Shown here in pieces: positions 1-18,137 of a stretch of 64,000 nt of DNA. Every line of letters starts with the position of its first letter. Position 1 is the first letter of the stretch. A program made the position numbers and the translations under genes. Below the pieces are notes generated by a model. It did not search any database, had not been told where the DNA came from, and was given only the letters and a program-made list of their open reading frames with translations. The stretch is from Bdellovibrionales bacterium (GTDB taxonomy: Bacteria; Bdellovibrionota; Bdellovibrionia; Bdellovibrionales; UBA1609), in the NCBI GenBank assembly GCA_019637855.1, contig JAHBUX010000006.1:62001-126000 (forward strand), in the 5' to 3' direction.

Positions 1-67
1 CTACGCCGTCGTCGGCGCCCATCCCCGCCCTCAGTCTCCGGTTGACGCCGTCTGGGGCCTCGTCTAA
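1..67 (+). CDS. 3' end of an upstream gene (partial, tentative)
   Basis: The second forward frame is open from the window edge to a TAA at 65-67 and would encode a short tail ending in DAVWGLV. Nothing recognisable is visible in about 21 residues. The frame of the next gene is also open to the left edge, so this fragment could be spurious. Confidence 0.3.
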   Translation, partial: YAVVGAHPRPQSPVDAVWGLV

Positions 68-77
68 ACACCAGCCC

Positions 78-1258: not shown

Positions 1259-1261
1259 CGA

Positions 1262-3147: not shown

Positions 3148-3153
3148 AAAGCA

Positions 3154-4185
3154 CTAAAGGCCTACAGCAAGAGCGGCACCATCAGTGGACTTGAGGTTGT
3201 CCTTCCAAGTCTTTTCTACTGATTTAGCGACGCTCGCGGGCAGGGGGACATAGTGCAGTTCGGTCGCCATGCTTATACCCTTAGTATAAGCCCAGCGGAA
3301 GAACTTAAGCGCCTCTTTGCCCTGCTCGGCGTTGGCCTGCACTTTATGCATCAGAACGAAAGTGGAGCCGGCAATGGGCCAGCTTTTTTTACCCGGGGCA
3401 TTGGTAAGAATTAGGTAGTAGTCCTTAGCCTTACCCCAATCTGCGCCCGCGGCAGCCGCTTCAAAGGTCTCAGAGTTGGGCTCAACAAAGGTGCCGGCGC
3501 TGTTTTGCATACTGGCGGTGGCCATTTTGTTTTGCAAAGCGTAGGCGTACTCGACATAGCCGATCGAACCATCGATTTGTTTTACGTAGGAAGCGACGCC
3601 TTCGTTACCTTTACCGCCTACACCCGTGGGCCATTTGACGGCCGATCCTTCGCCTACTTTTTCCTTCCACTCGGGGCTGACCTTCGACAGGTAGTTGGTC
3701 CAAATAAACGTGCTGCCTGAGCCGTCCGAGCGACGAACCACGGTGATATCTTTGTCCGGAAGCTTGGTGCCTTTGTTGATGGCCACCAAGGCAGGGTCAT
3801 TCCATTTTTTGATTTTGCCTAAGAAGATATCAGCCAAAACAGCGCCACTCAGTTTGAGAGTTGACCCACTCAGGCCTTCGACATGGATCACTGGCACGAT
3901 GGCGCCATTCACGATCGGAAATTGCACCAATCCGTCCTTGGCCAGGTCTTCGGTTTTCAGCGGCATATCGGTGGCGCCGAACGCAACGGTTTTGCTTTGA
4001 ATTTGTTTAATTCCACCGCCCGAACCGATCGATTGATAGTTGATGGCGACACCAGTTTCGTTTTTGTAAACGGTGGCCCATTTTGCCAAGAGTGGGTAGA
4101 CGAAGGTGGATCCAGCGCCGGTGAGTTCCGCGGCGGAGGTAGTGAACGAGAGCATCAGGGCAGCAACAAGCGCAGTGAATTTCAC
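3154..4185 (-). CDS. pstS: Periplasmic phosphate-binding protein PstS
   Basis: This 343-residue protein captures phosphate in the periplasm and delivers it to PstCAB. The GTG at 4185 is chosen over an upstream in-frame ATG because it is preceded at proper distance by a strong AGAGGAG ribosome site and opens directly into a signal peptide (KFTALVAALMLSFTTSAAE). The mature protein starts with LTGAGSTFVYPLLAKW. It carries further PstS hallmarks: the phosphate-contacting SIGSGGG, FGATDMPL and RSDGSGSTFIWTNYL. Extending to the upstream ATG would add about 46 residues with no signal-peptide logic. It is first in the pst operon and lies 112 bp downstream of an outer-membrane barrel gene on the same strand. 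Confidence 0.96.
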   Translation of the reverse strand: MKFTALVAALMLSFTTSAAELTGAGSTFVYPLLAKWATVYKNETGVAINYQSIGSGGGIKQIQSKTVAFGATDMPLKTEDLAKDGLVQFPIVNGAIVPVIHVEGLSGSTLKLSGAVLADIFLGKIKKWNDPALVAINKGTKLPDKDITVVRRSDGSGSTFIWTNYLSKVSPEWKEKVGEGSAVKWPTGVGGKGNEGVASYVKQIDGSIGYVEYAYALQNKMATASMQNSAGTFVEPNSETFEAAAAGADWGKAKDYYLILTNAPGKKSWPIAGSTFVLMHKVQANAEQGKEALKFFRWAYTKGISMATELHYVPLPASVAKSVEKTWKDNLKSTDGAALAVGL

Positions 4186-4199
4186 GGTAGGTCTCCTCT

Positions 4200-4238
4200 T
4201 TTTGGCCAAAATATACGGGCTCAAAGAGGGTGAAATAA
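4200..4238 (-). promoter_or_regulatory. Possible pstS promoter with a 12-bp palindrome at the start point
   Basis: Reading the minus strand, a TATATT -10 box (4210-4215) lies 17 bp from a poor -35 TTATTT (4233-4238), as often seen at activator-dependent promoters. A perfect palindrome TTTTGGCCAAAA (4200-4211) covers the expected start point and directly abuts the ribosome site of pstS. I could not recognise a convincing Pho box. Confidence 0.35.
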
Positions 4239-4297
4239 AGGGGAATGGCGCTCCCAACGGAAACCTGACAAAGGCGCGAGTTAAGCGGTGCGGCGGT

Positions 4298-5242
4298 TTA
4301 AAACAGGTTGGCGCTGGAACCAATGCTCCAAGTGGTGCGGTCGGCTCTCAAATCGCCAATAACGAAGGACACGCCGGGCGACAGGTAAATGTCGCGTGTG
4401 ACCGAGATGCCGACGCCGAAATTCTGCGAAACATCGTAGCGGCGGAAGGTCCACGGATTTTCGCTGGAGCGAATATGTTCGAATACAAAGAGATTCGAAT
4501 CCATCCGCAAGTTCACCTTATCGGTAAGACGGTACTCAATGGCCGGCAGAAAAGCCCAGCTGTAATCACCCTGCTCTTTTTTGAACTCAGGATCATGCTT
4601 AGTGAAAACAGCCGCGCCAATGTACGTGTTGAAGCCGATCGAAAAACCAGTGCCTTCAAACTCGTAGACGCTGGTCTGACCGAAACCCCAGTTGGTTAAA
4701 AAACCTTTGCGTTGTTGATCTGACGCCGACACATAGGTCTGGCGCAAGCTTACAGCCGACTGCAGTCCGAACAAATTGTAAATGTACTGATAGGCGAAGT
4801 AGGGGTTTTCAACATCCACGCGATCGCCTTGATAACCATTCGGTGTACGCGTGCCCGACAGCGGTGCTACCCAACGCAAACCAAAACCGGCAAACAAAGC
4901 CTGTTGGGTAGTGAGATTGTATTTTCCAGAAATGGATCCGCCCAAAGCGGGGAAGTCCGTCGTGCCGAGAGCTCCGGTAATATTGGGGCGCTTTTCACCG
5001 AAAGGCTGCTGTAAGCTGCCGCCGGCGTAATTCAGAGAAGTGGAAATTGAGTAGCGCGATTTCGAACCGGTATCGGTGCGCAGTTTTTTATTGGTGATAA
5101 GAGTGTCGACATCTTGCCCGTCGGGTTTGCTTGTCGTCTCAGTTAGTTCATCGGCGTTAAGCGTGGAAGTGGATTCGCTGGGGGCGGCCAAAACGGCGGG
5201 TCCGATCACAAGAGCGGCAAACAACAGCAGGATCTTCGACAT
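4298..5242 (-). CDS. Exported outer-membrane beta-barrel protein
   Basis: A 314-residue protein with a signal peptide (MSKILLLFAALVIGPAVLAA) and a mature part made of alternating, aromatic-rich strands. It ends in SIGSSANLF; a C-terminal phenylalanine is the usual outer-membrane barrel assembly signal. The ATG at 5242 is preferred to one 30 bp upstream because CGGAGT precedes it. No family is recognised. Its position immediately upstream of pstS on the same strand suggests, but does not prove, that it is a porin-like channel used during phosphate starvation. A hydrophilic Thr/Ser-rich linker of about 40 residues separates the signal peptide from the barrel. Confidence 0.75.
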   Translation of the reverse strand: MSKILLLFAALVIGPAVLAAPSESTSTLNADELTETTSKPDGQDVDTLITNKKLRTDTGSKSRYSISTSLNYAGGSLQQPFGEKRPNITGALGTTDFPALGGSISGKYNLTTQQALFAGFGLRWVAPLSGTRTPNGYQGDRVDVENPYFAYQYIYNLFGLQSAVSLRQTYVSASDQQRKGFLTNWGFGQTSVYEFEGTGFSIGFNTYIGAAVFTKHDPEFKKEQGDYSWAFLPAIEYRLTDKVNLRMDSNLFVFEHIRSSENPWTFRRYDVSQNFGVGISVTRDIYLSPGVSFVIGDLRADRTTWSIGSSANLF

Positions 5243-5287
5243 AGTAAGACTCCGTTTTGGGATCAATATCAATTGGTAATCAAAACC

Positions 5288-5316
5288 ATTTATGGGAGGG
5301 CGGCGGTGGTGGTCAA
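5288..5316 (-). promoter_or_regulatory. Candidate sigma70-type promoter of the barrel gene
   Basis: On the minus strand TTGACC (complement of 5311-5316) is followed after 17 bp by ATAAAT (complement of 5288-5293), giving a leader of roughly 40 nt to the ATG at 5242. Confidence 0.4.
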
Positions 5317-5345
5317 GCGATTACTCTAGGGTATAGAAATCTCGG

Positions 5346-5374
5346 TTACAACACCTCTCCAAGTCCGTTATAGT
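5346..5374 (+). promoter_or_regulatory. Sigma70-type promoter of the GH31 gene
   Basis: TTACAA (5346-5351) and TATAGT (5369-5374) are separated by 17 bp, and the predicted start is about 20 nt upstream of the ATG at 5400. Confidence 0.55.
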
Positions 5375-5399
5375 GCCTGCACTTTTTTGAGGAGGCGGC

Positions 5400-7856
5400 A
5401 TGAAAGATTCGGCATGGGTGCGTTGGGGCCTGGGTATAGGTGTTTTTCTGACCTGCGTGACGCTGGCTTTGGTTGTCAGCCGCAAGTTTCCTTCCAAAAC
5501 ACGGGTGCAAGTCGAAATTCCCAAAACGGGTGAACGCCGCCTGCAACTGCGCGCCATCAGCCCGACGGTTTTTGCTTTTGAAGTTCTGCCGGAGTCAGTC
5601 GCTGAACCGCGTCTTCTGGATTTAAAAGCAGAACCGGTGGTCGGTGGGCAAATCCTGGAGGATGGGTTTGAGACCCAAGCCTTGAAGGTGACGGTCGGCA
5701 GTGATCTATGCATGAACGTCTTTGATAAAATCGCAGGTGTTGCGTTAGCTACATTGTGCCCCGAAGCGCATGATCTGAATATCTCTGCACCGACCATGAC
5801 CCATGCTTATGGTTTAGGGGAGCATCTGACTTTGAAGCCTGAGTTCAACTGGGTCGGAAAGGTACGCACGCCCGGCTCGAAATACGGCAATCGTATGATC
5901 CTGTTTGAAAAGGGCGCTGTCGGTGATGCGCAATTCCCGGTGTTGTACGCGCTCGGTCCGGCAAAACAAAACTTTGCCCTCGTCTATGACAACCCGTTTG
6001 CGCAGACCTGGGATTTGCAGAAGCTGCCGTGGTCGGTGAAGACCGGTCAGGGTTCAGTGCGCGGCTATTTTATCGGCGGTCGCGATATGCCCGAACTGCG
6101 TCGTCAATTTATGGAGATGGCCGGCCGTCCACCGGTGCCGCCTAAAAAAGCGTTTGGTCTATGGATGTCGGAGTACGGTTACGACAATTGGGCTGAGCTC
6201 GATAAAAAACGGCAAAGTCTTAAGGCCAACGGTTTTCCGGTGGAGGGTTTCGTGCTGGATCTGCAATGGTTCGGCGGCATCAAGGGCGGCTCTGAGCTCA
6301 GCAACATGGGCGGACTGCAGTGGGATCTTAAAAATTTTCCTGAACCGGAAAAAAAGATCGCTGAACTGAGAGAGCAGGGACTAGGTATTATAGTGATCGA
6401 AGAGCCGTTTATATCGGCCGGCGTGGTCGATCGCGAGTCGGGTCGCACAGTGTTTGGAGAACTGGAGAAAAAAGGATTTCTGGTGCGCGAAGGCAACGCG
6501 CCTGACGCCAAGCCGGTTCGTATCGATCCCAAAGCGTGGTGGGGCAATGGCGGGATGTTGGATTTTATCCGCAGTGAGGCCGGTGATTTCTGGCACGATT
6601 GGAAACGCCAACCTCTGATCAACGCCGGGGTGATGGGGCATTGGACTGATCTAGGGGAGCCCGAGATGTTTAGCGACAACGGCTTTTACGACAATGGTCG
6701 CTATTCACAAGCGCAAGCGCATAACTTCTACAACCTGCGCTGGAGTGAAAGTCTGTTTCGTGGCTATCAACGCAATGGCGTTGAACAACGGCCCTGGATT
6801 CTTTCGCGCTCCGGCACTATCAGCAGTCAACGCTTTGGTGTTGCGATGTGGTCGGGTGATATTGGTTCGAACTTGGAGAGCTTGGAGTCCACTGTCCGTG
6901 CGCAAGGACATATGTCGCTTTCGGGTATGGATTACTTCGGCTCGGACACGGGCGGATTTCATCGCGAAGGTGTGCGTGGCAAAGAAGGCGAAATGTACAC
7001 GCAGTGGTTTGTGAACTCGGCGATGTTCGATACGCCTTTGCGTCCGCACACCTTGAACCTATGCAACTGTCGAGAGACGGCACCGGATAGAGTAGGGCAC
7101 GTGCCGAGCAACTTGGCGGCGGCCCGACTGCGCCACACCTTGCAACCCTATTACTATTCTCTGGCGCATGAGGCGCAAAGAGTGGGCGAACCTCTGGTGG
7201 CCCCCTTGGTTTACTACTTTCAAGACGATCTGGGCGTGCGCGATCTGGGCGATCACAAGATGGTTGGCCCATTTCTGCTGGCTGTGTCGGTGGCGTCTGA
7301 AAACATCACCAACCGCGGCGTCTATTTTCCAGTCGGTCAATGGTACGACTACTACGACAACACGCTTTATGACAGCCCGGGAGGATGGGTCGGTGAGCGC
7401 GTCGTTCGGCGTGAGGGAAATCTGCGTCTACCGCTTTATGCGCGGGCCGGCGCATTGATTCCCACGCAAAACGCGCGTGGTGACATCGTGATTCAAGTGT
7501 TCCCTTCGCCGCAAGAGTCGACTTTCACGCTGTGGGAGGATGACGGCCGTACGCAAAAGTATTTAAAGGGCGAACGTCGCGCTACACCCTTGTGGCAGAT
7601 GGAAAGCAGCAACGGCACGCGTGTGCGCGTGGGTAAGGTCGAGGGCAGTTATATGGGAGCGCCGTCAGAGCGCTCCTTTGGGGTGGAGATATTTAGGGCC
7701 ACACAACCCACGGTGGTGCAAGTGAATGGCGAGGATTGGCCTCTTGTGCCGACCGACAAGAAAGATTTTTGGTCGTACCAAAATGGACGTGTGCAGGTTT
7801 GGTTGGCTGAACGACCGGTCAGTCAGACTGAGGACATTCTGATTCTTAACAAATAA
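5400..7856 (+). CDS. Membrane-anchored glycoside hydrolase family 31 enzyme
   Basis: An 818-residue alpha-glycosidase-type enzyme. An N-terminal hydrophobic helix at about residues 8-27 (WGLGIGVFLTCVTLALVV) anchors or exports it, so it should act outside the inner membrane. After an N-terminal beta domain comes the (beta/alpha)8 barrel, with GLWMSEYGYDNW near residue 255 and GFVLDLQWFGG. The segment HWTDLGEPE carries the expected nucleophile Asp417, and a typical distal segment reads WSGDIGSNLESL. A C-terminal beta domain follows, containing FTLWEDDGRT. GH31 members cleave alpha-glucosides, alpha-xylosides, sulfoquinovosides or act as transglycosylases; specificity cannot be read here. A strong GAGGAGG site precedes the ATG. 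Confidence 0.93.
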   Translation: MKDSAWVRWGLGIGVFLTCVTLALVVSRKFPSKTRVQVEIPKTGERRLQLRAISPTVFAFEVLPESVAEPRLLDLKAEPVVGGQILEDGFETQALKVTVGSDLCMNVFDKIAGVALATLCPEAHDLNISAPTMTHAYGLGEHLTLKPEFNWVGKVRTPGSKYGNRMILFEKGAVGDAQFPVLYALGPAKQNFALVYDNPFAQTWDLQKLPWSVKTGQGSVRGYFIGGRDMPELRRQFMEMAGRPPVPPKKAFGLWMSEYGYDNWAELDKKRQSLKANGFPVEGFVLDLQWFGGIKGGSELSNMGGLQWDLKNFPEPEKKIAELREQGLGIIVIEEPFISAGVVDRESGRTVFGELEKKGFLVREGNAPDAKPVRIDPKAWWGNGGMLDFIRSEAGDFWHDWKRQPLINAGVMGHWTDLGEPEMFSDNGFYDNGRYSQAQAHNFYNLRWSESLFRGYQRNGVEQRPWILSRSGTISSQRFGVAMWSGDIGSNLESLESTVRAQGHMSLSGMDYFGSDTGGFHREGVRGKEGEMYTQWFVNSAMFDTPLRPHTLNLCNCRETAPDRVGHVPSNLAAARLRHTLQPYYYSLAHEAQRVGEPLVAPLVYYFQDDLGVRDLGDHKMVGPFLLAVSVASENITNRGVYFPVGQWYDYYDNTLYDSPGGWVGERVVRREGNLRLPLYARAGALIPTQNARGDIVIQVFPSPQESTFTLWEDDGRTQKYLKGERRATPLWQMESSNGTRVRVGKVEGSYMGAPSERSFGVEIFRATQPTVVQVNGEDWPLVPTDKKDFWSYQNGRVQVWLAERPVSQTEDILILNK

Positions 7857-7897
7857 TCAATTCTCGTTTTGAGACGGGCTTTGCAGCTAAACCTTGT

Positions 7898-7924
7898 CCA
7901 CTGGACTACCGAAAAGTCCAGTGG
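7898..7924 (+). promoter_or_regulatory. 10-bp perfect inverted repeat overlapping the ribosome site
   Basis: CCACTGGACT (7898-7907) and AGTCCAGTGG (7915-7924) are perfectly complementary with a 7-nt loop. The 3' arm ends inside the GTGGAGGGA ribosome site of the gene starting at 7935. No T-run follows, which argues against a simple terminator. Confidence 0.65.
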
Positions 7925-7934
7925 AGGGACCATA

Positions 7935-8237
7935 ATGCCTACTAAATCAGTCAAGAAGTCCGTTACTCGAAAAGCTCGTAAGACAACCCCCAAAAAGAAG
8001 ACGATCACCAACCTGACCAAGCCTCAGGCTAAAAAAGCCAAGAAGACCCCGCCCACAGCGGAACGCCAAGGTCAGAAGCGTGGTTTTATGTGGAAGCTGC
8101 TGGAGCAGAAAAAAGCTCGTCAGCTTGAGCATCCGGCCCATCGCATGGGTGGTACTGCCAATCCGCATGAGCGTGTGCAACAGCCCAATGGTGCTGGGTT
8201 CACGCGCTTCCATGGTCCGCGCCGTAAGGCTGCCTGA
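7935..8237 (+). CDS. Small lysine-rich basic protein, possibly nucleic-acid binding
   Basis: A 100-residue, very basic protein. The first 45 residues are a Lys/Thr/Pro/Ala-rich tail (KKSVTRKARKTTPKKK and similar), reminiscent of histone-H1-like bacterial tails. The second half is less biased and has the segment GFMWKLLEQKKARQLEHPAH. There is no signal peptide or cysteine. Binding to DNA or RNA is an inference from composition only. The ATG at 7935 is chosen because GGAGGGA precedes it; an upstream extension would run through the hairpin at 7898-7924. It stands alone between the GH31 gene and a terminator. Confidence 0.7.
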   Translation: MPTKSVKKSVTRKARKTTPKKKTITNLTKPQAKKAKKTPPTAERQGQKRGFMWKLLEQKKARQLEHPAHRMGGTANPHERVQQPNGAGFTRFHGPRRKAA

Positions 8238-8254
8238 TTTTAGAATTTTATGTG

Positions 8255-8281
8255 GCCACCGCACGTCCGTGCGGTGGCTTT
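8255..8281 (+). terminator. Hairpin terminator after the lysine-rich gene
   Basis: A perfect 10-bp stem GCCACCGCAC / GTGCGGTGGC with a 4-nt loop, followed by only three T residues. It lies 17 bp after the stop at 8237. Confidence 0.65.
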
Positions 8282-8357
8282 GACTCTCTATCACCCCGGC
8301 ACATTCCTTGATATAGACTGCAGAAACGCTTCTTTCTCTTTGTATATTGGGAATGAA

Positions 8358-8900
8358 ATGAACATTTTTCTACACTGTCTTCGCCTCAGTCTTTTACCGG
8401 TTCTTTTTGTACTCACGTTTTCTGCCAGTGCTTCGACACCGGCTGAGCCTGCCGTCGTTAAATTTTCTTATCGGGCCGGTTGGACTGTGGACGATTATCT
8501 TACTCAATTTTTGACCAAGGTTCCGTTGGCGCAATTTGAATCTTCGCCTTCGGGCGATTCGATTCGCTTGACTGGGGCGATTGTGATCGAGCTGTTCAAT
8601 ATGCCCGAGGCTGTTCAAGTGGCGGTCGAGAATGATCTCCGCCGTGCCTTTCGCGGTGAACGCCGTATTTCTGGCGCCGCATTGGATATCCGCGCGGCCG
8701 AAGTCGTTTTTCTTGCGTCACGCCCAGAAGTGGACACTCCACGGCAGACGTATGGTCCTGCAGAGCCGTCTGACAGAGTGGTGCGCCATGAGGTCGATAT
8801 GGAGGCCATCAAACGCGAAGTGGAAGACCGTCAGCGTTTGCAAGCCCAGGAGCGGGGCGATTTCGGCTGCGGATCATTCTTAGGTCACATCGATAAATAA
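8358..8900 (+). CDS. Exported protein of unknown function
   Basis: A 180-residue protein with a clear signal peptide (LRLSLLPVLFVLTFSASAS). The mature part has no family I recognise. It contains an Ile/Val-rich stretch around IRLTGAIVIELF and a charged C-terminal helix (EAIKREVEDRQRLQAQE), ending in GCGSFLGHIDK with a lone cysteine. The ATG at 8358 is preferred because it begins the signal peptide; the upstream in-frame extension passes through the terminator. Neighbouring genes give no functional hint. Confidence 0.65.
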   Translation: MNIFLHCLRLSLLPVLFVLTFSASASTPAEPAVVKFSYRAGWTVDDYLTQFLTKVPLAQFESSPSGDSIRLTGAIVIELFNMPEAVQVAVENDLRRAFRGERRISGAALDIRAAEVVFLASRPEVDTPRQTYGPAEPSDRVVRHEVDMEAIKREVEDRQRLQAQERGDFGCGSFLGHIDK

Positions 8901-8919
8901 GAGTGCGCGGACAAAATGT

Positions 8920-9813
8920 TCAGCGCAGCCAACGGTGCATCACCTGCACGGTCCAGCTTCGACTCAGGCTGGTGTTGGCGGGTGATCCAAACCAGGTTTG
9001 ATCACTGTACGTCAGCGTGGCTGTCCAGTCGCCAAACGTGCGCGCCAGTGAAAGCGTACCGGTCGCATAGCGCTGCACGGAACCGTTTGAGCGAATCTCA
9101 CCCTCCACGGCAATCGGATCTTCATAGGTCGACAACAAAGCGCCGCCGGCGCGCCATTCGCCCCAGTTGTAGCCGAGGCCTGCACTGTAAAGAGCCCCCA
9201 AACCGGGACGAATGCGTCCACGCGAAAGCGCATTTGAATAGTCGCGAGCCAACGAGCGATGCGCTTCAAAGTGCGCGAAGGTGTCCCAATGGCCAAACAT
9301 TTTGGTCAATAGAGTTCCCGCCCCTATGGCCCAAAAACCACGACCGCGGGCGGAGAGCTGGTAGAGATCGTCGCTTTCCTGAACGGCCCGCCCACTTGGC
9401 ACTGTGACATGAAAGTAGCCAAGACCTTTCGGTCGCCAGGGATGATAGTCCCAGTCCGTGAGGTACTCGTACGCGCCGTTGAGTGAGATATCGCCTAAAC
9501 CCTGCGCGGCCTGACCTTCGCGCTCGCGCCGCACCAGGGGTAGCGCGATGCCGGCCTGCCAGCGATCACTGAGTAAGTGGGCGGCTTCGAGACGCATTTC
9601 ATTTAAAGTTTCACTGTCCTGACGTGCGCGCCATAGACCGTCGCGGCCCACATCGGCGTGGATCGAACCCGACGTCAGAGTGGCGGTGAACTGAGCTTTC
9701 TCTTGTCCCGCGATCAACGCGGGTGCTGAAATGCCACCACCGCAACAGGCCGCCGCCCATGCCGAAGGCGTGCTAAAAAATAAGAGGAATAACAGCTTCG
9801 TCTTTGATCTCAT
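8920..9813 (-). CDS. Exported beta-barrel-like protein with N-terminal ACCGGG motif
   Basis: A 297-residue protein with a signal peptide (TKLLFLLFFSTPSAWA) and a mature N-terminus AACCGGG. The body alternates polar and aromatic residues and has repeated Gly/Trp turns such as GLGYNWGEWRAGGALLSTYE, consistent with a small outer-membrane barrel. The vicinal cysteines at the mature N-terminus could bind metal or form disulfides; this is inferred. Its start overlaps the upstream FixH-like gene by 41 bp and the next gene is a redoxin, so the three genes form one minus-strand operon, probably for a metal or redox task in the envelope. Confidence 0.7.
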   Translation of the reverse strand: MRSKTKLLFLLFFSTPSAWAAACCGGGISAPALIAGQEKAQFTATLTSGSIHADVGRDGLWRARQDSETLNEMRLEAAHLLSDRWQAGIALPLVRREREGQAAQGLGDISLNGAYEYLTDWDYHPWRPKGLGYFHVTVPSGRAVQESDDLYQLSARGRGFWAIGAGTLLTKMFGHWDTFAHFEAHRSLARDYSNALSRGRIRPGLGALYSAGLGYNWGEWRAGGALLSTYEDPIAVEGEIRSNGSVQRYATGTLSLARTFGDWTATLTYSDQTWFGSPANTSLSRSWTVQVMHRWLR

Positions 9814-10213
9814 CGCCGTCTTTCAATTGCACGCGGATTTCCCAGTCACCAGCCATTGTGAAGAACACACGCGAGGCGCGATAGGTGCCGATATCCAGTT
9901 TTTCCACCGTGACCGGACTTGAACCGTGGCCCATGCCAGGCATCCATAGCACGACCGCAAGGTGACCTTCTAGGTCCTGCGCTAAGAAGCTCTGATCGGC
10001 TTTGTTTAAGCGACCGGTTTTCACAATGAACGTGCCAAATGTGGTGGGCGTGGATTTTGTTTCCCAGTTCCAGGTGACACAGTCACCGCTCTTAAAATGG
10101 GCCGCGCAACCTGTGACTTTCTGCTGATTCAGATCTTGGCCCGGTGAAACGTATGTTGGTTTGGCGCAAGAGATCGTGCAAAGACCTAAAACGAAGAGGA
10201 CCAGGGTTCTCAT
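9773..10213 (-). CDS. FixH/YtkA-like lipoprotein
   Basis: A 146-residue lipoprotein with the lipobox-like segment LCTISC near residues 12-16. The C-terminal half carries a FixH/YtkA-type beta-sandwich pattern: LWMPGMGHGSSPV followed by a TYRASRVFFTMAGDWEIRVQL strand. In related proteins the Met/His-rich turn is suspected to bind copper or another metal, but this is not established here. It lies between the redoxin (4-bp overlap) and the barrel gene (41-bp overlap), and has a related partner encoded divergently at 10786. Confidence 0.75.
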   Translation of the reverse strand: MRTLVLFVLGLCTISCAKPTYVSPGQDLNQQKVTGCAAHFKSGDCVTWNWETKSTPTTFGTFIVKTGRLNKADQSFLAQDLEGHLAVVLWMPGMGHGSSPVTVEKLDIGTYRASRVFFTMAGDWEIRVQLKDGDEIKDEAVIPLIF

Positions 10214-10719
10214 CGGAAAATCGCGCAGCCCAGGCTGCGCGTCTCCGCCACTTTGACTTTATCGTCTTTGTCCAAGGCTTCGAGTGCATCTTTTAAATAC
10301 ATCTGCTTGGCCTCTTGCGCTTCGGAAGAGTCTGTGACTCCGCCACGGTAAGCGATTTTACCGTCCTTCGAAATTACAAACGCGTGCGGGGTGCGCGCCG
10401 CTTTGAATTCGTTGGCCAGTTTATTGTTCTCATCGCGAATCACGGGAATGGGAAAATTCTTGAAGTACGTGCGCGCCTCTGCGACGGTTTCTTCACTGTT
10501 GGAGTTTACCGCCACAAAATGAAAGTTTTTAAAGCGAGTGGCTAGCTCTTTGACCATCGGCGCATGACTGTTGGAGCACGGGCAGCGCGCCGACATAAAA
10601 ATAGCGACTAAGCCCTTAGGGCCTGGAGAAACTTCAATCGCTTTCCCTGTCATAAGATCTTGGCCGACGAGAGCAAACGCTTCTGTGCTGAACAGCAACA
10701 AAAATAGAAAAATACGCAT
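10210..10719 (-). CDS. Exported thioredoxin-fold redoxin with CPCS motif
   Basis: A 169-residue thioredoxin-fold protein of the redoxin/AhpC-TSA type with a short signal peptide (MRIFLFLLLFSTEAFA). The active-site region is FMSARCPCSNSH, with two cysteines in CxC spacing rather than the usual CxxC. A cis-Pro region is seen at RTPHAFVISKDGKIAYRGG. It probably acts in the periplasm in disulfide or metal handling. The ATG at 10719 has an AGGGG site. It is the first gene of the minus-strand three-gene operon and diverges from the FixH-like gene at 10786. Confidence 0.8.
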   Translation of the reverse strand: MRIFLFLLLFSTEAFALVGQDLMTGKAIEVSPGPKGLVAIFMSARCPCSNSHAPMVKELATRFKNFHFVAVNSNSEETVAEARTYFKNFPIPVIRDENNKLANEFKAARTPHAFVISKDGKIAYRGGVTDSSEAQEAKQMYLKDALEALDKDDKVKVAETRSLGCAIFR

Positions 10720-10737
10720 ATGCCCCTAATATCAGCA

Positions 10738-10766
10738 TTTACCTCGCGTGCAAACTGTCTTATGAC
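10738..10766 (+). promoter_or_regulatory. Candidate promoter of the forward FixH-like gene
   Basis: TTTACC (10738-10743), 17-bp spacer, TATGAC (10761-10766), ending 20 bp upstream of the ATG at 10786. Both elements are imperfect. Confidence 0.35.
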
Positions 10767-10785
10767 CTCCGCCAAGGAGAAAATC

Positions 10786-11196
10786 ATGAAGACTCTGCTT
10801 AGCCTTATGTTATTCGCTATTGGCTTTAATGCTTCCGCTCACTCGCCCGTGATGGTGTCGCTGGGGGAAGTGGAGGCCACGGTGGCGTTCTTGAAGCCGC
10901 CCAAGGTGGGTGACTATGCGACCATGCGCTTGACGTTCGAGGACGCCTCTAGCCGTCAGTTAGTCACTCCCGACGCCGCAGTGTATGTCAAAATGACCAT
11001 GCCCGATCACGGTCACGATGGTGTGCCTGTTGAGCGTGCGTCCATCACGAATGGCGTCGCCGTTTTCGACGATATGTACTTTATGATGGGCGGGCTGTGG
11101 GAAATCCAAGTGTCGCTCGAGTACAAAGATGGCCGCGTCGTCGGTCCAGCTAGCTTTCATTACCAGCTCGATCAATCCGGCCATCATCATCACTAA
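10786..11196 (+). CDS. Exported FixH/YtkA-like protein with His-rich C-terminus
   Basis: A 136-residue protein with a signal peptide (KTLLSLMLFAIGFNASA) that leaves an N-terminal histidine (HSPVMVSLGEVEA) after cleavage. The core has KMTMPDHGHDGVPV and MYFMMGGLWEIQVSL, matching the same two segments of the lipoprotein at 9773-10213. It ends in four histidines. A free N-terminal His plus Met/His motifs fits a copper-binding periplasmic protein, but that is inferred. The ATG at 10786 is preferred because AGGAGA precedes it; an upstream in-frame ATG lacks a ribosome site. Confidence 0.78.
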   Translation: MKTLLSLMLFAIGFNASAHSPVMVSLGEVEATVAFLKPPKVGDYATMRLTFEDASSRQLVTPDAAVYVKMTMPDHGHDGVPVERASITNGVAVFDDMYFMMGGLWEIQVSLEYKDGRVVGPASFHYQLDQSGHHHH

Positions 11197-11219
11197 AAGA
11201 TAAGGCCAAAAAATTGCAC

Positions 11220-11242
11220 GGCCTCCTTATAACAAGGAGGCC
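11220..11242 (+). promoter_or_regulatory. 9-bp perfect hairpin containing the whole ribosome site
   Basis: GGCCTCCTT (11220-11228) and AAGGAGGCC (11234-11242) pair perfectly across a 5-nt loop. The 3' arm is the ribosome site of the ATG at 11246, so the folded RNA would block initiation. No T-run follows. Confidence 0.7.
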
Positions 11243-11245
11243 ACA

Positions 11246-11722
11246 ATGGCGAACACTCAAGGTCCGCGGCGCTGGGGATGGATTCTTCTCGGTGCTGGAT
11301 TCGGATTGACCACCGCATTCCTATTAGATCCTGTTTCCGGCCGAAAACGCCGAGCTCGTGTGCGGGACAAAAGCGCACGCGCCGCTCGCCACGCACTCGA
11401 CTATGCGGGCCGCCGCGGCATTGCGCTGAAGCATCGGCTGCAGGGAAAAATCTCAGAGTTAAAGCGTGATCTTCAAGGCGAAGTGGAAGTGGATGACATT
11501 ACACTCGTGCAACGCATTCGCTCGCAACTCGGTCATCGCGTCGATCATGCTCGCGCGGTCCAAGTGGAAGCTCAGCGCGGCGTAGTGGTTTTGCGTGGGC
11601 CGATTGTCTATAGCGAAGTCGAAACACTGGTGAACTGTGTGGAGCGTGTTCCGGGTGTGAAGGCAGTCGATGATCGCTTGGAAGTCTTATCGAACATGCC
11701 CTCGGACGGAACACACCACTGA
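11246..11722 (+). CDS. BON-domain protein
   Basis: A 158-residue protein. The N-terminus has a short hydrophobic stretch (WGWILLGAGFGLTTAFLL) followed by DPVSGRKRRAR, a typical transition for small membrane-anchored stress proteins. A basic, Arg-rich middle leads to a BON domain at about residues 83-150 (ITLVQRIRSQLGHRV, GVVVLRGPIVYSEVE, VKAVDDRLEV). BON domains are thought to bind phospholipid or periplasmic surfaces. The AAGGAGG site is inside the hairpin at 11220-11242. Together with the GlsB-like gene and the Rieske oxidoreductase next door it forms a set commonly seen among general stress genes. Confidence 0.85.
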   Translation: MANTQGPRRWGWILLGAGFGLTTAFLLDPVSGRKRRARVRDKSARAARHALDYAGRRGIALKHRLQGKISELKRDLQGEVEVDDITLVQRIRSQLGHRVDHARAVQVEAQRGVVVLRGPIVYSEVETLVNCVERVPGVKAVDDRLEVLSNMPSDGTHH

Positions 11723-11728
11723 TTTAGT

Positions 11729-11983
11729 TTAGTGAACGGTGCGGCCGCGCAGCTGATTGCCGATCCACAGGACGAGGACGGCGCCGACTACGGAGGCAAT
11801 AAATCCTGCCGGCTCACCGGGCAAGTACCAACCGACGGCTTGACCGAGCATCTGTGCGATCAATGCACCGACAATGCCGAGCAGAGTGGTAAAAATAAAG
11901 CCCATGGAATCGCGTCCTGGCATCAGGAAGCGAGCAATGAGACCTACGATAAAACCAATTATGATTGTCCAAATAATCGTCAT
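11729..11983 (-). CDS. GlsB/YeaQ/YmgE family membrane protein
   Basis: An 84-residue inner-membrane protein of the transglycosylase-associated (GlsB/YeaQ) family. It has an N-terminal helix IIWTIIIGFIVGLIARFLMP followed by GRDSMGFIFTTLLGIVGALIA, the family hallmark, and a third helix near the C-terminus. The function is unknown; family members are induced by envelope or acid stress. A near-perfect AAGGAGGT ribosome site precedes the ATG. It converges with the BON gene (6 bp between stops). Confidence 0.9.
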   Translation of the reverse strand: MTIIWTIIIGFIVGLIARFLMPGRDSMGFIFTTLLGIVGALIAQMLGQAVGWYLPGEPAGFIASVVGAVLVLWIGNQLRGRTVH

Positions 11984-12018
11984 AGGACGACCTCCTTTAA
12001 TTGTGCTTCAATTGCAAT

Positions 12019-13584
12019 CTACGGGCCGGTTATCACTGTTTCGCTGTTGGTGACCGTCGGGTCGGGCATAGGCTCGAGCTCTTTGTTGGCGGGGCCGTTG
12101 ATGACTTGCCCGAAGCGATCAAAGCGTGAGCCATGACAGGGGCAGTCCCAAGTTTTCTCCGCCGAGTTCCAGCGCACCAAACCACCTAAGTGCGTGCACA
12201 CTGCAGAGCAGGTGTGCAAGCGACCGACTTCATCTTTATAAACGGCGAGTTTCGCCAATCCGTCACGCATCACTGCACCTTCCCCCGCTTCGATCTGGTG
12301 AACATCACTGACGTCACCTTCGCTCAACCAATCGCCATAGGGCATTGTGGATTCAACGGCGTCTTTGACGTAAGTGGAGAGACTGCGCAGAGGTAGACGG
12401 GCCGGATCATAGAGCGTCGCCCAGGGGTTGTCGCGGCCAACCACCAAATCGGCAATCAGCATTCCGGCCAATGTTCCATGCGTGAGTCCATGGCCTGAAT
12501 CACCGGTAACTATAAAAACATTGTCGGTATCACCCGGATTGCGCCCGATGTAGGCGAGCCCATCAATGGGCTCCATCACCTGCCCTGACCAACGGGTGAC
12601 CGCGCGGCCTCTCACATCAAAGCGTTCGTGCACCCACTGCAGAAGATTGGCGAAGTGTTTTTCCTCGTGGGTGTCTTGACCGGTGCGATGATCTTCGCCT
12701 CCAACCAGTAAGATGTCTTCACCGGTGTTGGGATCTTTTACGAACCGTATGTAATGATAGGGATCGCCGGTGTCCCATAGGAGAGCGGGTGCTACCAAAT
12801 CGCGCGAGACTGGAACGCCAACCACATATGTGCGGTAGGCCGGGTTCTTCGTATGAATGGTCACGCGATTGTTGATCGGCGTGTTGGTGGCGACAACCAC
12901 CGCTTCACATTCGACGGTGAAACCTTGCGTGGTTTTGACTTGCGCGGGATGGCCGCCACGGATCTCGCTCACCTCCGAGTGAGTGAACACATGCCCACCT
13001 TTACGTTGAATCGCGTAGGCTAGACCGTCGATATATTTCAGAGGATGAAACTGCGCTTGCTCTGGAAACTGTAGACAGGGCCCGCTGTCAAAGAACAAAA
13101 CCGGAGTGCGCGGCAGAAGACGCACATCGCGCAAGCCGGCGCGATGAGCAGCGTCGATCTCCTTTGTCAGTTCCGGAAGAGACTCTGTGGGCGACAAAAA
13201 CAAAAATCCATCGACGCGGCGAAATTCACAATCGATCTCTTCTTCCGCTTGAATGGTCTCAATCAAGTCGATGGCGGCGGTGTGGCTTTCAGCAGCTAAA
13301 CGCGCACCGTCTCGGCCATGCAGTCGCTCCAAATTGTAGTAACGATCGTCAAGCGCATTGGACAGATGCGCGGAGGTTAAGCCGGTCTCGCCCAGGCCTA
13401 AGCGTTCGCGATCTAAAACGATCACGCTTTGGCCCTGGCGCAAAAGCATGTAAGCCACAGTGAGGCCTGCAATACCTCCGCCCACCACGCAGACATCAGC
13501 TTTCATATTCTGATGAATGGAAGTGAAAAGCGGTTTTTCGCAGCGTTGCCAAAGTGAATGTGCATCAAAGTAGGCTGAACCCAT
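12019..13584 (-). CDS. FAD-dependent oxidoreductase with C-terminal Rieske domain
   Basis: A 521-residue soluble flavoprotein. The N-terminal dinucleotide-binding motif is VCVVGGGIAGLTVAYML. A DAO-type FAD domain fills the first roughly 400 residues and includes the distal FAD contact GDSGHGLTHGTLAG. The C-terminal 110 residues form a Rieske [2Fe-2S] domain with CTHLGGLVRWN and CPCHGSRFDRFG. The substrate is unknown; similar fusions occur in stress islands of many bacteria. The ATG at 13584 follows an AGGAGGG site, and an in-frame ATG 33 bp upstream is rejected. The gene is read toward the GlsB-like gene, 35 bp away. Confidence 0.92.
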   Translation of the reverse strand: MGSAYFDAHSLWQRCEKPLFTSIHQNMKADVCVVGGGIAGLTVAYMLLRQGQSVIVLDRERLGLGETGLTSAHLSNALDDRYYNLERLHGRDGARLAAESHTAAIDLIETIQAEEEIDCEFRRVDGFLFLSPTESLPELTKEIDAAHRAGLRDVRLLPRTPVLFFDSGPCLQFPEQAQFHPLKYIDGLAYAIQRKGGHVFTHSEVSEIRGGHPAQVKTTQGFTVECEAVVVATNTPINNRVTIHTKNPAYRTYVVGVPVSRDLVAPALLWDTGDPYHYIRFVKDPNTGEDILLVGGEDHRTGQDTHEEKHFANLLQWVHERFDVRGRAVTRWSGQVMEPIDGLAYIGRNPGDTDNVFIVTGDSGHGLTHGTLAGMLIADLVVGRDNPWATLYDPARLPLRSLSTYVKDAVESTMPYGDWLSEGDVSDVHQIEAGEGAVMRDGLAKLAVYKDEVGRLHTCSAVCTHLGGLVRWNSAEKTWDCPCHGSRFDRFGQVINGPANKELEPMPDPTVTNSETVITGP

Positions 13585-13697
13585 GCGCCCTCCTGTTGTA
13601 AAAGAGCGATGGTGCACAATTGGTACCAGCGATTAGCGTGCATTGGATAGGGCATCGGCCTTAGATCCGAGGCAAATTGTCCCGTTTGTCAGCGCGA

Positions 13698-14765
13698 TTA
13701 CTTGCGACTGACCTTATAGACAGCACCTGCAGCATCGTCTGAAACAAGAATGGAGCCGTCCGCGAGCTCCAACACATCCACAGGACGTCCCCAGGCCTTG
13801 TTCGATTGCAAAAAGCCACTGACGAACGACTCGGACTTAGCCACCTTTCCGTCTTTCATCTGCAGTTTGACGACTTCATAGCCAATCGGGGTGCTGCGAT
13901 TCCATGAGCCGTGCAGAGCGACGATAGCTGTGTCTTTCTGCGCCTTTTCGTGACGTAAAAAACGCATGCCGAGGGAGGCGGCATGGGCGGGAAACTCAAA
14001 GTTTGGTGGAGTGAACTGCGCGCAGTCTTTGTTTTCATTGAATTCAGAATCTTTGATGGCTTTGCCGTGACAGTAAGGAAAGCCGAAATGCTCTTTGGTT
14101 TTACTGACCACGTTCAGCTCATCGGGAGGGATGTCATCGCCTAACCAATCGCGGCCGTTGTCGGTAAACCATAGCTGCTTTGTCTGTGGATGCCAGTCAA
14201 AACCGACGGTGTTGCGAACCCCTTGCGCCACCAACTCTTTTTTTCGGCCATCGGCAGAGACGCGCTGAATATTGGCAAAAGTATCGGGTTTTTCTTTGCA
14301 CACATTGCATGGAGCGCCCACAGGAATGTACAGCCAGCCATCTGGACCGAAAGCGATAAACTTCCAGCCGTGATGAGTGCGGTCGGGGAACTTAGGGCCC
14401 CACTCCACCGGTTTGCCCGGACTTTTCACATTTTTCGCAATGTTTTTGTAAACTAAAATCTTATCGATTTCGGCGACATAAAGATCACCATCCTTAAAGG
14501 CCACACCATTCGGTGAACGGCGATCATCGGAAACGGTAACGACCTCGGCTTTGCTGCCGGCCGGTACAAGTGCATACACATGTTTGTTGCGCGTACCTAC
14601 GAACACGATTCCATTTGGACCAAGCGTTAATGAGCGCGCATCGGGAACCGGAAAAGCGTAGATCGAAACCTCATAGCCTTGAGGAACTTTGAGATTGGTG
14701 ATGGGAGGTTCGGGAGCTGCGAGCGCCGTGACTATCGGTAGTAGTGAGGAAAAAAGGACAATCAT
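13698..14765 (-). CDS. Exported sorbosone-dehydrogenase-like beta-propeller protein
   Basis: A 355-residue protein with a signal peptide (LFSSLLPIVTALAAP) and a six-bladed propeller typical of PQQ-dependent sugar or sorbosone dehydrogenases. Family segments include ARSLTLGPNGIVFVGTR, THHGWKFIAFGPDGWLYIPV, and ELWFTDNGRD-like text (here QLWFTDNGRDWLGDD) followed by PPDELNVV. The segment HGSWNRSTPIGYEVV and the ending DDAAGAVYKVSR also fit. There is an unusual Cys pair in PCNVCKE. It should oxidise a sugar or aldehyde in the periplasm if PQQ is bound; cofactor use cannot be confirmed. No quinoprotein-synthesis gene is in the window. Confidence 0.82.
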   Translation of the reverse strand: MIVLFSSLLPIVTALAAPEPPITNLKVPQGYEVSIYAFPVPDARSLTLGPNGIVFVGTRNKHVYALVPAGSKAEVVTVSDDRRSPNGVAFKDGDLYVAEIDKILVYKNIAKNVKSPGKPVEWGPKFPDRTHHGWKFIAFGPDGWLYIPVGAPCNVCKEKPDTFANIQRVSADGRKKELVAQGVRNTVGFDWHPQTKQLWFTDNGRDWLGDDIPPDELNVVSKTKEHFGFPYCHGKAIKDSEFNENKDCAQFTPPNFEFPAHAASLGMRFLRHEKAQKDTAIVALHGSWNRSTPIGYEVVKLQMKDGKVAKSESFVSGFLQSNKAWGRPVDVLELADGSILVSDDAAGAVYKVSRK

Positions 14766-14841
14766 GGCGCCAACTTTAAACGCTAAACTAAAAGTGTCAA
14801 GATGGTTTCAACGGCGTACCGTGGGCGGAAAGGCGCAATCT

Positions 14842-17199
14842 TCAAGACTCACTTTCCTCCCAGAAACGGCGCACATCGCCCAAAATCTGCGAGGACACCA
14901 TCGGTTCCGCGTCCACCCAGTCCTTGGGCATCGACTTGCGATAGCTTTCCAAAGTGAACCGGCGATCCATCAGCACAATCAAGCCGCGATCTTGACTGGA
15001 GCGAATCACTCGCCCAGCACTTTGCACCACGCGCGCCATGGCCGGATATGTATAAGCATAGTCAAAGCCGTCGCCATGTTTGTTTTCGTAATATTCGCGT
15101 AAGAGTTCGCGTTCAAAGTCAAATGTAGGTAGCGCGGGGCCCACGATCAGCGCCCCAATCAACATCTCGCCGGGGTAATCCACGCCCTCGGCAAAAACTC
15201 CGCCCTGCACCGCGAAGATCACGGTGGGCACGTTCTCGCGCAGCATATCTAGGTAGGTGGCCACGGCTTCACGTCGCATTTCGCGTGCTTGGCACAGAAC
15301 ACGAAAACCTGGCAAGTCGATCATCTGAAAGACTTTGTTCATAAAATCAAAGCTGGGAAAGAAGACGAAGTAATTGCCCGGCTTGACGCTCACCACGCGC
15401 TCAATGGTGTCTTTGATCTTGTTGTAGTTGCCGGCCCGATCGCGCATTTTGGTCGAGATTTGCGGGATGAGTAAGAGTTTGCGCCGCTCGCGCGGAAACG
15501 GCGATTGAAACTCGGCGGTTTCCACATCACCGGCTAGACCCAGTAGGCGCGAGTAGTACTCAAACGGCTTTAGTGTGGCTGAAAATCCCACCATATTGCC
15601 AAACTGATCGTAACTTTCGCGTAGCCATTTCGAAGCGTCGCAACAGGTGAGCCTTAGTTGCCCTCCGCCAGAACTCGGAGAGGCGGTGATAAAGAACTCC
15701 TCGTCCACGGTTTCCAGAACTTGGGCGAACTCAGAAACCAAGTTGCATAGCCGTAGCACCGGATCTTGCGCGCGCAATTCGAACGAGGACTCTAGATAGC
15801 GCGCCAACAGCTCTTGCGCCCGCCCCTGAATCGGCGCGAATTGGCCGGAGTGCAGTTCGATGCGCTGTGGTCCCGGCCATCCGCCGCCATTCAACCCCGA
15901 GATTAAATCGCGTAGCCCCTCCAGGATACCGTAGGCCAGTGTGCGTACGGAGTCCGGGCAGGCGGCATAAAGGCGCTCGATCTCATCGCAGGACAGGCGC
16001 GCCGAGTAGTATTCCGTGGCGCGTGCCGGAAGATTGTGAATCTCGTCGATCACCAGATTGGGAAGATTCTTACCGCCATCACCCCAACCATTGTGAATCA
16101 AGCGGCCAATGCTATTGCGAGGAGAAAAGACGTAATTGTAATCGCAGACCACCACATCGGCCTGTGCAGCGGCTTCCATCTGCAATTCGAATGGACAGAC
16201 CTCGTGCTCGATCGCCATTTTGCGAAATGTTTTGGCGGTGAGGCGCTTTTTCTTGTTCAGTTTTTCACGCAAGCCATGGGCACTGACTTTGTCATAGTGG
16301 TTCCGCGCAAACTCGCAATGCTTGGGATTGCAATGTGGCTCTTCTTTCAAGCACATTTTGCTTTTCGCATGAATGGTCACCGAGCGCAGTTTCACTCCGG
16401 CCTCTTGCAGCCGTTTGACCGCATCTTCAGCCACTTCATGCTGCGAGTTCTTGGCGGTCAGGTACACGGTCTTTTGCCCGCGCTTCATCGATTCTTGCAA
16501 AACCGGAAACAAAACACCCGCGGTTTTCCCTAGGCCGGTCGGCGCTTGCAGCAGAAGGCGTGATTTTCCGCCAAGGCCTTGCTCCACGGTGCGCATAAGT
16601 TCACGCTGGCCGGTGCGCGGCTCGGCAAAGGGAAAAACGAAGTTTTCCGCCAAGCGATGGCGGCGCTCGGCAAGAGCTGCGAAAGTGTCTTCTTCCGCCG
16701 CGATTTCATTTAGGCGACGAGCCAGCCACTCCTGATAGTCGTCCACATCAAGCTTGACCTCCACGTCTTGACCTTTGCGCGAGCGCGCATTCACCACGTG
16801 CAAATTCAAGCGTGGTTCGAATCCCGAGTGCAGCCACTGCAAAAATCCGTAGGTGCGCAGCTGTAGTTTGTAGGGATGCTCTGAATGTGCGGCAAGTGCT
16901 GCCATCAATTCATCGACGTTGTAGGCTGATTTGATCTCTTCAATCAAACAGGGGTTGCCAAAACAAAAGCCATCCATTCGACCGCTGACGGTGATGCGGT
17001 ACTTGGCGGTTTCGAAATTATGCGTCACCCATTTCTCGCTCACATAGCCGGGGTATTCGGTCATGCGCTGAGCTTGAATCTCCATATGGATAGCCGTTCC
17101 TAAATTAGGTAGACCACCATAGCCTGAGTAGGTTTCGATGCTACCTGAGCGAGGCGACGGGACGGCGAATTCAGTGATGCTGAGCTGGAGATTCTTCAT
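14842..17199 (-). CDS. RecB/Cas4-like nuclease fused to XPD/DinG-type helicase
   Basis: A 785-residue fusion. Residues 1-130 show the RecB-family nuclease pattern: GTAIHMEI, GRMDGF (acidic ligand), EEIKS (E-x-K) and QLRTY (the QxxxY motif). Residues 185-785 form a superfamily 2 iron-sulfur helicase. It has Walker A QAPTGLGKTAG near 219-227 and four cysteines in CLKEEPHC, KHC and EVCPFEL. It also has the motif VVVCDYNYVF, the DEAH-type box LVIDEIHNLP and the C-terminal motif AGRVIRSSQDRGLIVLMD. It should unwind and process damaged or forked DNA. The ATG at 17199 shares one base with the stop of the upstream transporter (TGATG), so the two are coupled. Confidence 0.88.
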   Translation of the reverse strand: MKNLQLSITEFAVPSPRSGSIETYSGYGGLPNLGTAIHMEIQAQRMTEYPGYVSEKWVTHNFETAKYRITVSGRMDGFCFGNPCLIEEIKSAYNVDELMAALAAHSEHPYKLQLRTYGFLQWLHSGFEPRLNLHVVNARSRKGQDVEVKLDVDDYQEWLARRLNEIAAEEDTFAALAERRHRLAENFVFPFAEPRTGQRELMRTVEQGLGGKSRLLLQAPTGLGKTAGVLFPVLQESMKRGQKTVYLTAKNSQHEVAEDAVKRLQEAGVKLRSVTIHAKSKMCLKEEPHCNPKHCEFARNHYDKVSAHGLREKLNKKKRLTAKTFRKMAIEHEVCPFELQMEAAAQADVVVCDYNYVFSPRNSIGRLIHNGWGDGGKNLPNLVIDEIHNLPARATEYYSARLSCDEIERLYAACPDSVRTLAYGILEGLRDLISGLNGGGWPGPQRIELHSGQFAPIQGRAQELLARYLESSFELRAQDPVLRLCNLVSEFAQVLETVDEEFFITASPSSGGGQLRLTCCDASKWLRESYDQFGNMVGFSATLKPFEYYSRLLGLAGDVETAEFQSPFPRERRKLLLIPQISTKMRDRAGNYNKIKDTIERVVSVKPGNYFVFFPSFDFMNKVFQMIDLPGFRVLCQAREMRREAVATYLDMLRENVPTVIFAVQGGVFAEGVDYPGEMLIGALIVGPALPTFDFERELLREYYENKHGDGFDYAYTYPAMARVVQSAGRVIRSSQDRGLIVLMDRRFTLESYRKSMPKDWVDAEPMVSSQILGDVRRFWEESES

Positions 17200-18137
17200 C
17201 AAGTGCGGGCATTATCGAACAGGGGCACGGTGGTCCGCAAGGCTGGGCTTTTCTTCCACAATAAAAATTGAAAGAACAAACAATGTACGATCAATCCCAC
17301 CGCGGAGGGGAGGGCCGCCTTAGGGTGAAAGAAGAGCATCAGACTGGCGCTGACCGCAAAATTACGTGTGGCAACGCTGATAGCCACCGTCTCCGCATCG
17401 GCAGGAGAGATGAACCAGGCTGAGACGTGGCGCATTAAAGCATAGAGGCCAAAATCTACCAGCAAGAAGATCAGTATCAGCATATAAAAATCTTGGTTCA
17501 GCAAAAAGCGCAAGGGAACGCGGTTGAGCGAGGAGCCCACCAGAATAAACATCAGCACAGCCAGAATCAGGGAGTTCAAAAGAGGAAGTTTCGGGCGTAG
17601 CCACTGTGCTGGAATCAGCGGCGCAAGCAGGAAGCTCAGAAGCAAAGGGCCGGTAGTTAAGGTCAAGAGATAGAGCCCTAGGAAGCGAGCGTCTAAAAAC
17701 ACCGTGCTCAAGCCGAGGAGTTTCAGTAGAGGCACTGTGGCGAGTGGGCAGAGCAGAGTGGAGAGCAAAACAATCCACAGCGCCAACTCCTCATTACCGC
17801 CGCGTACGCGCGCAAAAAACGGATTGACCAACGCGCACGGGGCCAAGCTGCTGACGGCCACGCCCAACACAAAGTCAGCGTCGCGCACCAAGAGCGAAGC
17901 CAAGGCTGTTTGCAGCACGGGGAAGAATAAAAAAATCAGGGCCAGGGTGATGAGGGCGGGAGCGACTTGCGCGCGCGGACGCTCGAGGATTTTCTTCTTG
18001 TCAACGGCGAGGATGTTGAGGAACAAAAGTAGGAAGAGCAATATCGAACTGACCCAGATCAGCGACAACGATTGGTAGGGAAAGGCGATTCCCAGAACGA
18101 TGCCGCAAAAGATCGGTGCCGAAAAGAGTTTGAGCAG
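17199..18137 (-). CDS. BASS-type (bile acid:Na symporter-like) membrane transporter, non-AUG start
   Basis: An integral membrane protein with about 9-10 hydrophobic helices, no soluble domain. VAISVATRNFAVSASLMLFF followed by PKAALPSAVGL resembles the conserved TM9-10 region of BASS/arsenical-resistance-3 type carriers. The substrate is unknown. The start is uncertain. A TTG at 18068 would give 289 residues but has no ribosome site and removes half of the first helix. The open frame continues upstream through LLKLFSAPIFCGIVLGIAFP to a CTG at 18135-18137 preceded by AAGGGA, giving 312 residues. That start is back-to-back with the divergent ATG at 18138. Confidence 0.75.
   Translation of the reverse strand: MLKLFSAPIFCGIVLGIAFPYQSLSLIWVSSILLFLLLFLNILAVDKKKILERPRAQVAPALITLALIFLFFPVLQTALASLLVRDADFVLGVAVSSLAPCALVNPFFARVRGGNEELALWIVLLSTLLCPLATVPLLKLLGLSTVFLDARFLGLYLLTLTTGPLLLSFLLAPLIPAQWLRPKLPLLNSLILAVLMFILVGSSLNRVPLRFLLNQDFYMLILIFLLVDFGLYALMRHVSAWFISPADAETVAISVATRNFAVSASLMLFFHPKAALPSAVGLIVHCLFFQFLLWKKSPALRTTVPLFDNART

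Follow-up and report, generated by a model that had tools for sequence, protein, structure and literature searches.

A hairpin enclosing the ribosome site of a BON-domain gene as a possible translational brake in a Bdellovibrionales bacterium

In the genome of a Bdellovibrionales bacterium, the complete ribosome site of a BON-domain gene lies inside a perfect hairpin located between this gene and its upstream neighbor. Such an arrangement raises the question of what the hairpin does: does it control translation of the gene that follows it, does it serve the 3' end of the gene that precedes it, or is it an inverted repeat that arose by chance around a strong ribosome site? The locus was analyzed within a 64,000-nucleotide stretch of DNA, here called the window, to which all unprefixed coordinates refer. 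The data are compatible with a model in which the hairpin acts as a translational brake on the BON gene in read-through mRNA, a reading to which we assign a probability of about 0.45.

Results

The hairpin spans positions 11220-11242 of the plus strand and consists of a 9-bp stem, formed by a 5' arm (11220-11228) and a 3' arm (11234-11242), closed by a 5-nt loop (11229-11233). In letters it reads GGCCTCCTT-ATAAC-AAGGAGGCC, and the entire Shine-Dalgarno sequence (SD) of the BON gene, AAGGAGG (11234-11240, plus strand), is contained in the 3' arm, 5 nt ahead of the ATG (11246-11248). The 23-nt hairpin alone has a folding energy of -15.4 kcal/mol and the segment 11203-11251 one of -21.5 kcal/mol, values that none of 200 dinucleotide shuffles reached in either case. 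An extended predicted fold (11205-11250, plus strand) also pairs the start codon, with 11205-11208 opposite 11247-11250 and 11214-11216 opposite 11244-11246; this flank pairing (GCCA at 11205-11208 and UUG at 11214-11216 against CAAUGGC at 11244-11250) is weaker than the hairpin stem. In the lowest-energy fold predicted for the BON leader, the SD is paired. Sequence and folding thereby confirm the position of the hairpin and the enclosure of the SD by a perfect 9-bp stem, both of which a sequence-only reading of this DNA had reported. Because the SD is enclosed, reduced initiation is expected, and the hairpin would be expected to hinder translation of the BON gene.

The BON gene (11246-11722, plus strand), small and of a stress type, encodes a 158-aa protein that combines a YtxH-like N-terminal part, which falls under the Pfam cut-off, with a BON domain (PF04972). 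It follows, on the same strand and after a gap of 49 nt, a gene (10786-11196, plus strand) whose stop codon ends 23 nt upstream of the hairpin. This upstream gene had been described as FixH-like, but Pfam assigns it to the YtkA-like family (PF13115) and does not report FixH. Downstream lies a convergent transglycosylase-associated gene (PF04226; 11729-11983, minus strand), whose stop is 6 nt from that of the BON gene. Gene starts were set by open reading frames (ORFs) and an SD heuristic rather than by a gene caller. A promoter scan of the plus strand found no sigma-70-like site in the gap separating the BON gene from its upstream neighbor. A promoter inside the hairpin was likewise rejected, the only sigma-70-like site in 10700-12100 being at 11937 in a scan that covers sites of this type.

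Within its genome the arrangement is rare. Perfect stems of at least 9 bp with loops of 3-8 nt number 9 in the window against 1-3 in six Markov sequences, and 424 kb of the same genome (the window, L036-L041 and L058-L069) contain 48 perfect hairpins with stems of 9 bp or more, compared with a mean of 12 under the Markov model. In 184 kb with 51 SD-bearing starts, a stem of this length lies on the SD once, where about 0.02 would be expected with the upstream sequence shuffled, and a contiguous-stem test of the same starts gave a stem longer than 4 bp at the BON hairpin only. Scaled by length from these 184 kb to the 3.37-Mb genome, the extrapolated expectation is about 0.4 SD hairpins of at least 9 bp, so that such a hairpin is improbable at this particular spot and unsurprising somewhere in the genome. 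Opening the BON SD costs 11.7 kcal/mol, a value reached by none of 200 upstream shuffles and ranking third among 228 sampled starts of the genome (median 2.8), which were picked by a simple heuristic and among which some other high-ranking starts may be false. An exact search of the genome for CCTCCT-N3-12-AGGAGG returned 2 places, and a backward control likewise returned 2 per strand. A repeated element or operator was rejected: allowing up to three mismatches, only one further place in the genome (C22) was found, which by its sequence and ORF list does not lie on an SD. Rfam returned no match for 10600-12100 at E<=1, and a search of the entire window at gathering scores was equally empty.

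The window holds a second SD-enclosing hairpin, at 7897-7925 on the plus strand, with a stem of 11 bp extended by CCU/GGG. It precedes an ORF (7935-8237) for a 100-aa lysine-rich protein with no Pfam match, and its SD-opening cost of 10.9 kcal/mol ranks fourth among the 228 starts. In L071, a relative from the same genus, no more than a short stem touches the SD, and occlusion is no higher than in shuffles.

Is the pairing kept in related leaders? Matches to the BON protein occur in 3 of 58 near genomes, the source genome included, the two others showing 44% and 30% identity; a profile built from these three rows matched 34 of the 140 genomes of the order, in many cases through the BON part only. 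Ten SD-bearing leaders were tested, nine from YtxH+BON proteins and one (L021) from a YtxH-only protein, and in none did occlusion exceed that of the shuffles at a 5% threshold. L009 came closest (44 of 200 shuffles), and L010 folds into a bulged SD hairpin, yet freeing its SD costs as much as in the average shuffle (91 of 200). L014, a relative of L010, has no SD at the tested place, and a contig end truncates L016. The sequence-only reading had proposed a comparison of orthologous leaders and counted the lack of a complementary 5' arm against itself; in the available relatives this arm is missing. The result weakens the reading without overturning it, since the relatives are distant (at most 44% identity where measured) and none was found to carry the ytkA-BON junction: the ytkA-like gene has matches in 11 of 39 genomes, and the BON gene does not follow it in the seven loci inspected. 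As far as these distant and non-syntenic sequences indicate, the stem pairing is not kept in related leaders.

Across the order, hairpins of this kind are more frequent than expected. The pattern CTCCTT-N3-10-AAGGAG-N4-9-ATG gave 121 matches in 140 genomes, compared with 59 when the first arm was swapped to TCTTCC and 27 for the backward pattern (both strands summed throughout), which makes SD-enclosing hairpins before an ATG about twice as common as the shuffled-arm control predicts; some of the 121 are redundant, in that about nine repeat a hairpin already matched on the opposite strand and a few count adjacent ATGs twice. Surroundings were inspected for those of the 121 matches that have a locus and for two matches of the source genome, and stems at these loci measure 6 to 12 bp. 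Some of the hairpins precede very short ORFs, and not all of them are therefore leaders. Others have an ATG on both sides (for example L080, L086, L087 and L093), each arm then serving as SD on one strand and as anti-SD on the other; inverted repeats at divergent starts can arise in this ordinary way.

The comparison also revealed a conserved SD hairpin of about 10 bp, here termed R1, which in genus g37 precedes the gene for a small exported, helix-rich protein. The protein, represented by L113, has matches in 49 of 140 genomes, and leaders were taken from 30 loci. R1 lies just upstream of the ATG in L113-L134 (for example at L113:1813-1853 and L126:1810-1850, both on the minus strand) and has the form AAACTGGTCTCC-N-GGAGACCAGTTT at the ATG. 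Twenty of 30 leaders, 17 of them distinct, were aligned; outside the alignment stand L116 and L132, with the same stem type and a longer loop, L137 and L142, with other stem sequences, and L135, L136 and L138-L141, with no comparable hairpin or an uncertain ATG. Specifically, 90.6% of cells are paired across the 20 leaders, against 30-48% for slid partners. A U-A pair is exchanged for A-U in 2 of the 17 distinct rows, and other pairs vary by G-U. R1 exceeds its shuffle control in cells paired and in covariation score, whereas neither the number of pairs with changes in both partners (198 of 500) nor that of further pair types (426 of 500) exceeds the shuffles. In the more distant L137 and L142, the stem letters differ and the pairing of the SD is retained. 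The gene upstream of R1 varies: it encodes a small exported protein, another enzyme, or what we take from a motif to be a uracil-DNA-glycosylase-like protein. Since R1 persists under different upstream genes, a hairpin of this kind can go with the gene that follows it.

R1 and the BON hairpin resemble each other in shape. The L113 hairpin (GGTCTCCTT-GAATT-AAGGAGACC) matches it in stem and loop length with one pair exchanged, and it too is intercistronic, in a gap of 39 nt. However, the genes are unrelated, there are no common flanks, and a covariance model of R1 that matched 22 of 24 g37 genomes (training genomes included) scores 11220-11242 as its best match in the window at 12.8 bits, which is not significant (E 0.44). 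In the source genome the model returned nothing at E 0.1 or better, and Rfam gave no match at six R1 loci. The two hairpins share a shape, with no demonstrated kinship. R1, whose stem exists in several natural variants behind a range of upstream genes, offers a model in which this minimal design can be tested, and the comparative finding is of more interest and use than the BON locus alone.

The sequence-only reading had also offered the hairpin as an RNA thermometer, for which the nearest systems would presumably be the fourU thermometers, alongside ROSE elements. As in these, a hairpin in the 5' leader occludes the SD, and here one hairpin takes in both the SD and the start codon. Unlike them, the BON hairpin is far more stable, is perfectly paired and has no Rfam match. 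The computed cost of freeing its SD is 16.2 kcal/mol at 20 °C, 12.6 at 37 °C, 11.7 at 42 °C and still 8.5 at 60 °C, and mean SD accessibility is computed as 0.009 at 20 °C, 0.021 at 42 °C and 0.040 at 60 °C. By these values the SD does not open in the physiological temperature range, and the hairpin is far too stable for a heat sensor. Described thermometers (PMC8346122) depend on weak or non-canonical pairs around the ribosome site, whereas this stem is perfect and GC-rich. A thermometer is thus unlikely by computation, and we regard it as the least credible of the explanations considered. Among titles and abstract openings, no literature pairing the BON domain with an RNA thermometer was found, nor was this hairpin recognized elsewhere.

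Discussion

The model favored here is that the intercistronic hairpin keeps the BON SD double-stranded, while its flanks would also pair the start codon. Any mRNA that carries both arms, for instance one produced by read-through from the ytkA-like gene, would then have its BON translation braked, and the protein would stay at a low level unless pairing of the 5' arm were prevented. Relief might come from ribosomes or a protein loading before the hairpin folds, from an RNA-binding protein or helicase, or from a transcript that starts inside the hairpin. The shared mRNA, the lowered translation and any relief of the brake are inferences. Several lines of evidence speak for the model: a fold that shuffling does not reproduce, an SD among the costliest to open in the genome, a codirectional neighbor that ends 49 nt upstream and is followed by no sigma-70-like promoter on the plus strand of the gap, the recurrence of the arrangement in the order, and the retention of R1 under different upstream genes. 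Against the brake stand the ten related leaders, the presence of a protein match in only 2 of 57 other near genomes and the low R1-model score, as well as the fact that about half of the order's such hairpins are expected without selection, judged by one shuffled control.

By its predicted fold, the hairpin fits a known structural class, that of SD-sequestering hairpins. It resembles translational attenuators of this class in that the SD occupies the 3' arm, the complementary 5' arm lies immediately upstream and the start codon adjoins or enters the structure; it differs in that neither a leader peptide nor a ligand domain nor a competing partner strand could be recognized. Activator-dependent translation, the other option raised from the sequence, is possible. 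The genome encodes a CsrA gene, and the ACAAGGA of loop and arm fits what we take to be the CsrA core; CsrA is nevertheless a weak candidate for relief, since a match of this type overlaps any AAGGA-type SD. If the brake works, read-through mRNA would yield almost no BON protein, and the hairpin would provide a simple means to very unequal protein levels within one operon.

Two other explanations remain serious rivals to the brake. The hairpin may mainly serve the 3' end of the ytkA-like gene, as a weak terminator or as an exonuclease barrier after factor-dependent termination, with its overlap with the BON SD a by-product of the tight gap. In the 424-kb sample, hairpins of at least 9 bp cluster 0-60 nt past stop codons, where the BON hairpin also begins (23 nt past the stop), with 23 rows for 401 genes (21 distinct hairpins, two being counted on both strands, and those at 11220 and 7897 included); before stops they number 0-4 per 30-nt bin, about 1 per 30 nt. 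The earlier objection that the stem lacks a U-tract holds for the plus strand, where no U-tract for an intrinsic terminator of the ytkA-like gene follows (tail ACAATGGCGA), but it fails to exclude a 3'-end hairpin, because only 4 of the 23 post-stop hairpins have a T-rich tail (at least 5 T in the first eight tail bases). U-less stabilizing hairpins have been described at Rho-dependent ends in E. coli (PMC13289151); like the BON hairpin they are GC-rich, follow soon after the stop and have no U-tract, and what sets the BON hairpin apart is its overlap with the SD of the next gene in a 49-nt gap. A 3'-end role sits less well with the exact coincidence of 3' arm and SD, or with the 75 codirectional gaps shorter than 60 nt, among which the BON gap alone holds such a hairpin. 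Furthermore, the ribosome reportedly represses a terminator located shortly past a stop codon (PMC4824070). We consider a 3'-end role rather unlikely overall, while taking it seriously. Among 14 codirectional hairpins, only two, the BON hairpin and the one at 7897-7925, have 10 nt or less between their end and the start that follows. As a separate observation, the mostly T-poor post-stop hairpins hint that this organism terminates transcription in a U-poor manner or trims its Rho-dependent ends.

The second serious rival, a chance inverted repeat around a strong SD, would have no selected function and could still reduce expression. The extrapolated 0.4 cases per genome, the 59 matches of a composition-matched arm in 140 genomes and the lack of conservation in related leaders all speak for it. 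It is harder to reconcile with the shuffles, none of 200 of which matched the hairpin in stability or in SD-opening cost, with the roughly twofold excess of the arrangement across the order, and with a second SD-enclosing hairpin about 3.3-3.4 kb away; pure chance is in our view unlikely, a little more so than a 3'-end role. On the minus strand, the same bases might instead terminate read-through from the convergent gene (11983-11729), given that the two convergent genes, 6 nt apart, leave no room between them. A scanner calls a terminator-like site at 11245-11217, the first listed and the one with most pairs on either strand of 1-20000 (13 including G-U, then CAATTTTTTG), near a T6 tract at 11208-11217 (plus-strand A6 at 11208-11213). 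Yet this tract begins 6 nt past the nine Watson-Crick pairs, although with three wobble pairs the scanner accepts the site; the site lies about 490 nt beyond the stop of the convergent gene, and the scan yields 29 sites against 25.5 in shuffles, which is no excess. A minus-strand terminator is accordingly very improbable.

A broader and more doubtful proposal is that perfect hairpins swallowing the SD beside an ATG form a recurrent, partly conserved throttle on single cistrons in operons of this order, relieved by some factor, and that the BON hairpin is an independently evolved instance, together with the 7935 leader and R1. The survey additionally yielded two isolated cases. Near position 1501 of L100, on the minus strand, an 8-bp SD hairpin lies three bases ahead of the ATG of a 501-aa ORF that we take by eye to be transposase-like, an arrangement that recalls the shielding of transposase genes against read-through translation. 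At L004:1501-1520, the palindrome CCTCCTCG-TATG-CGAGGAGG lies upstream of a minus-strand ORF; its neighbors are, presumably and by eye, a multicopper-oxidase-like and a CsoR/RcnR-like ORF, and the palindrome may be the operator of a metal regulator.
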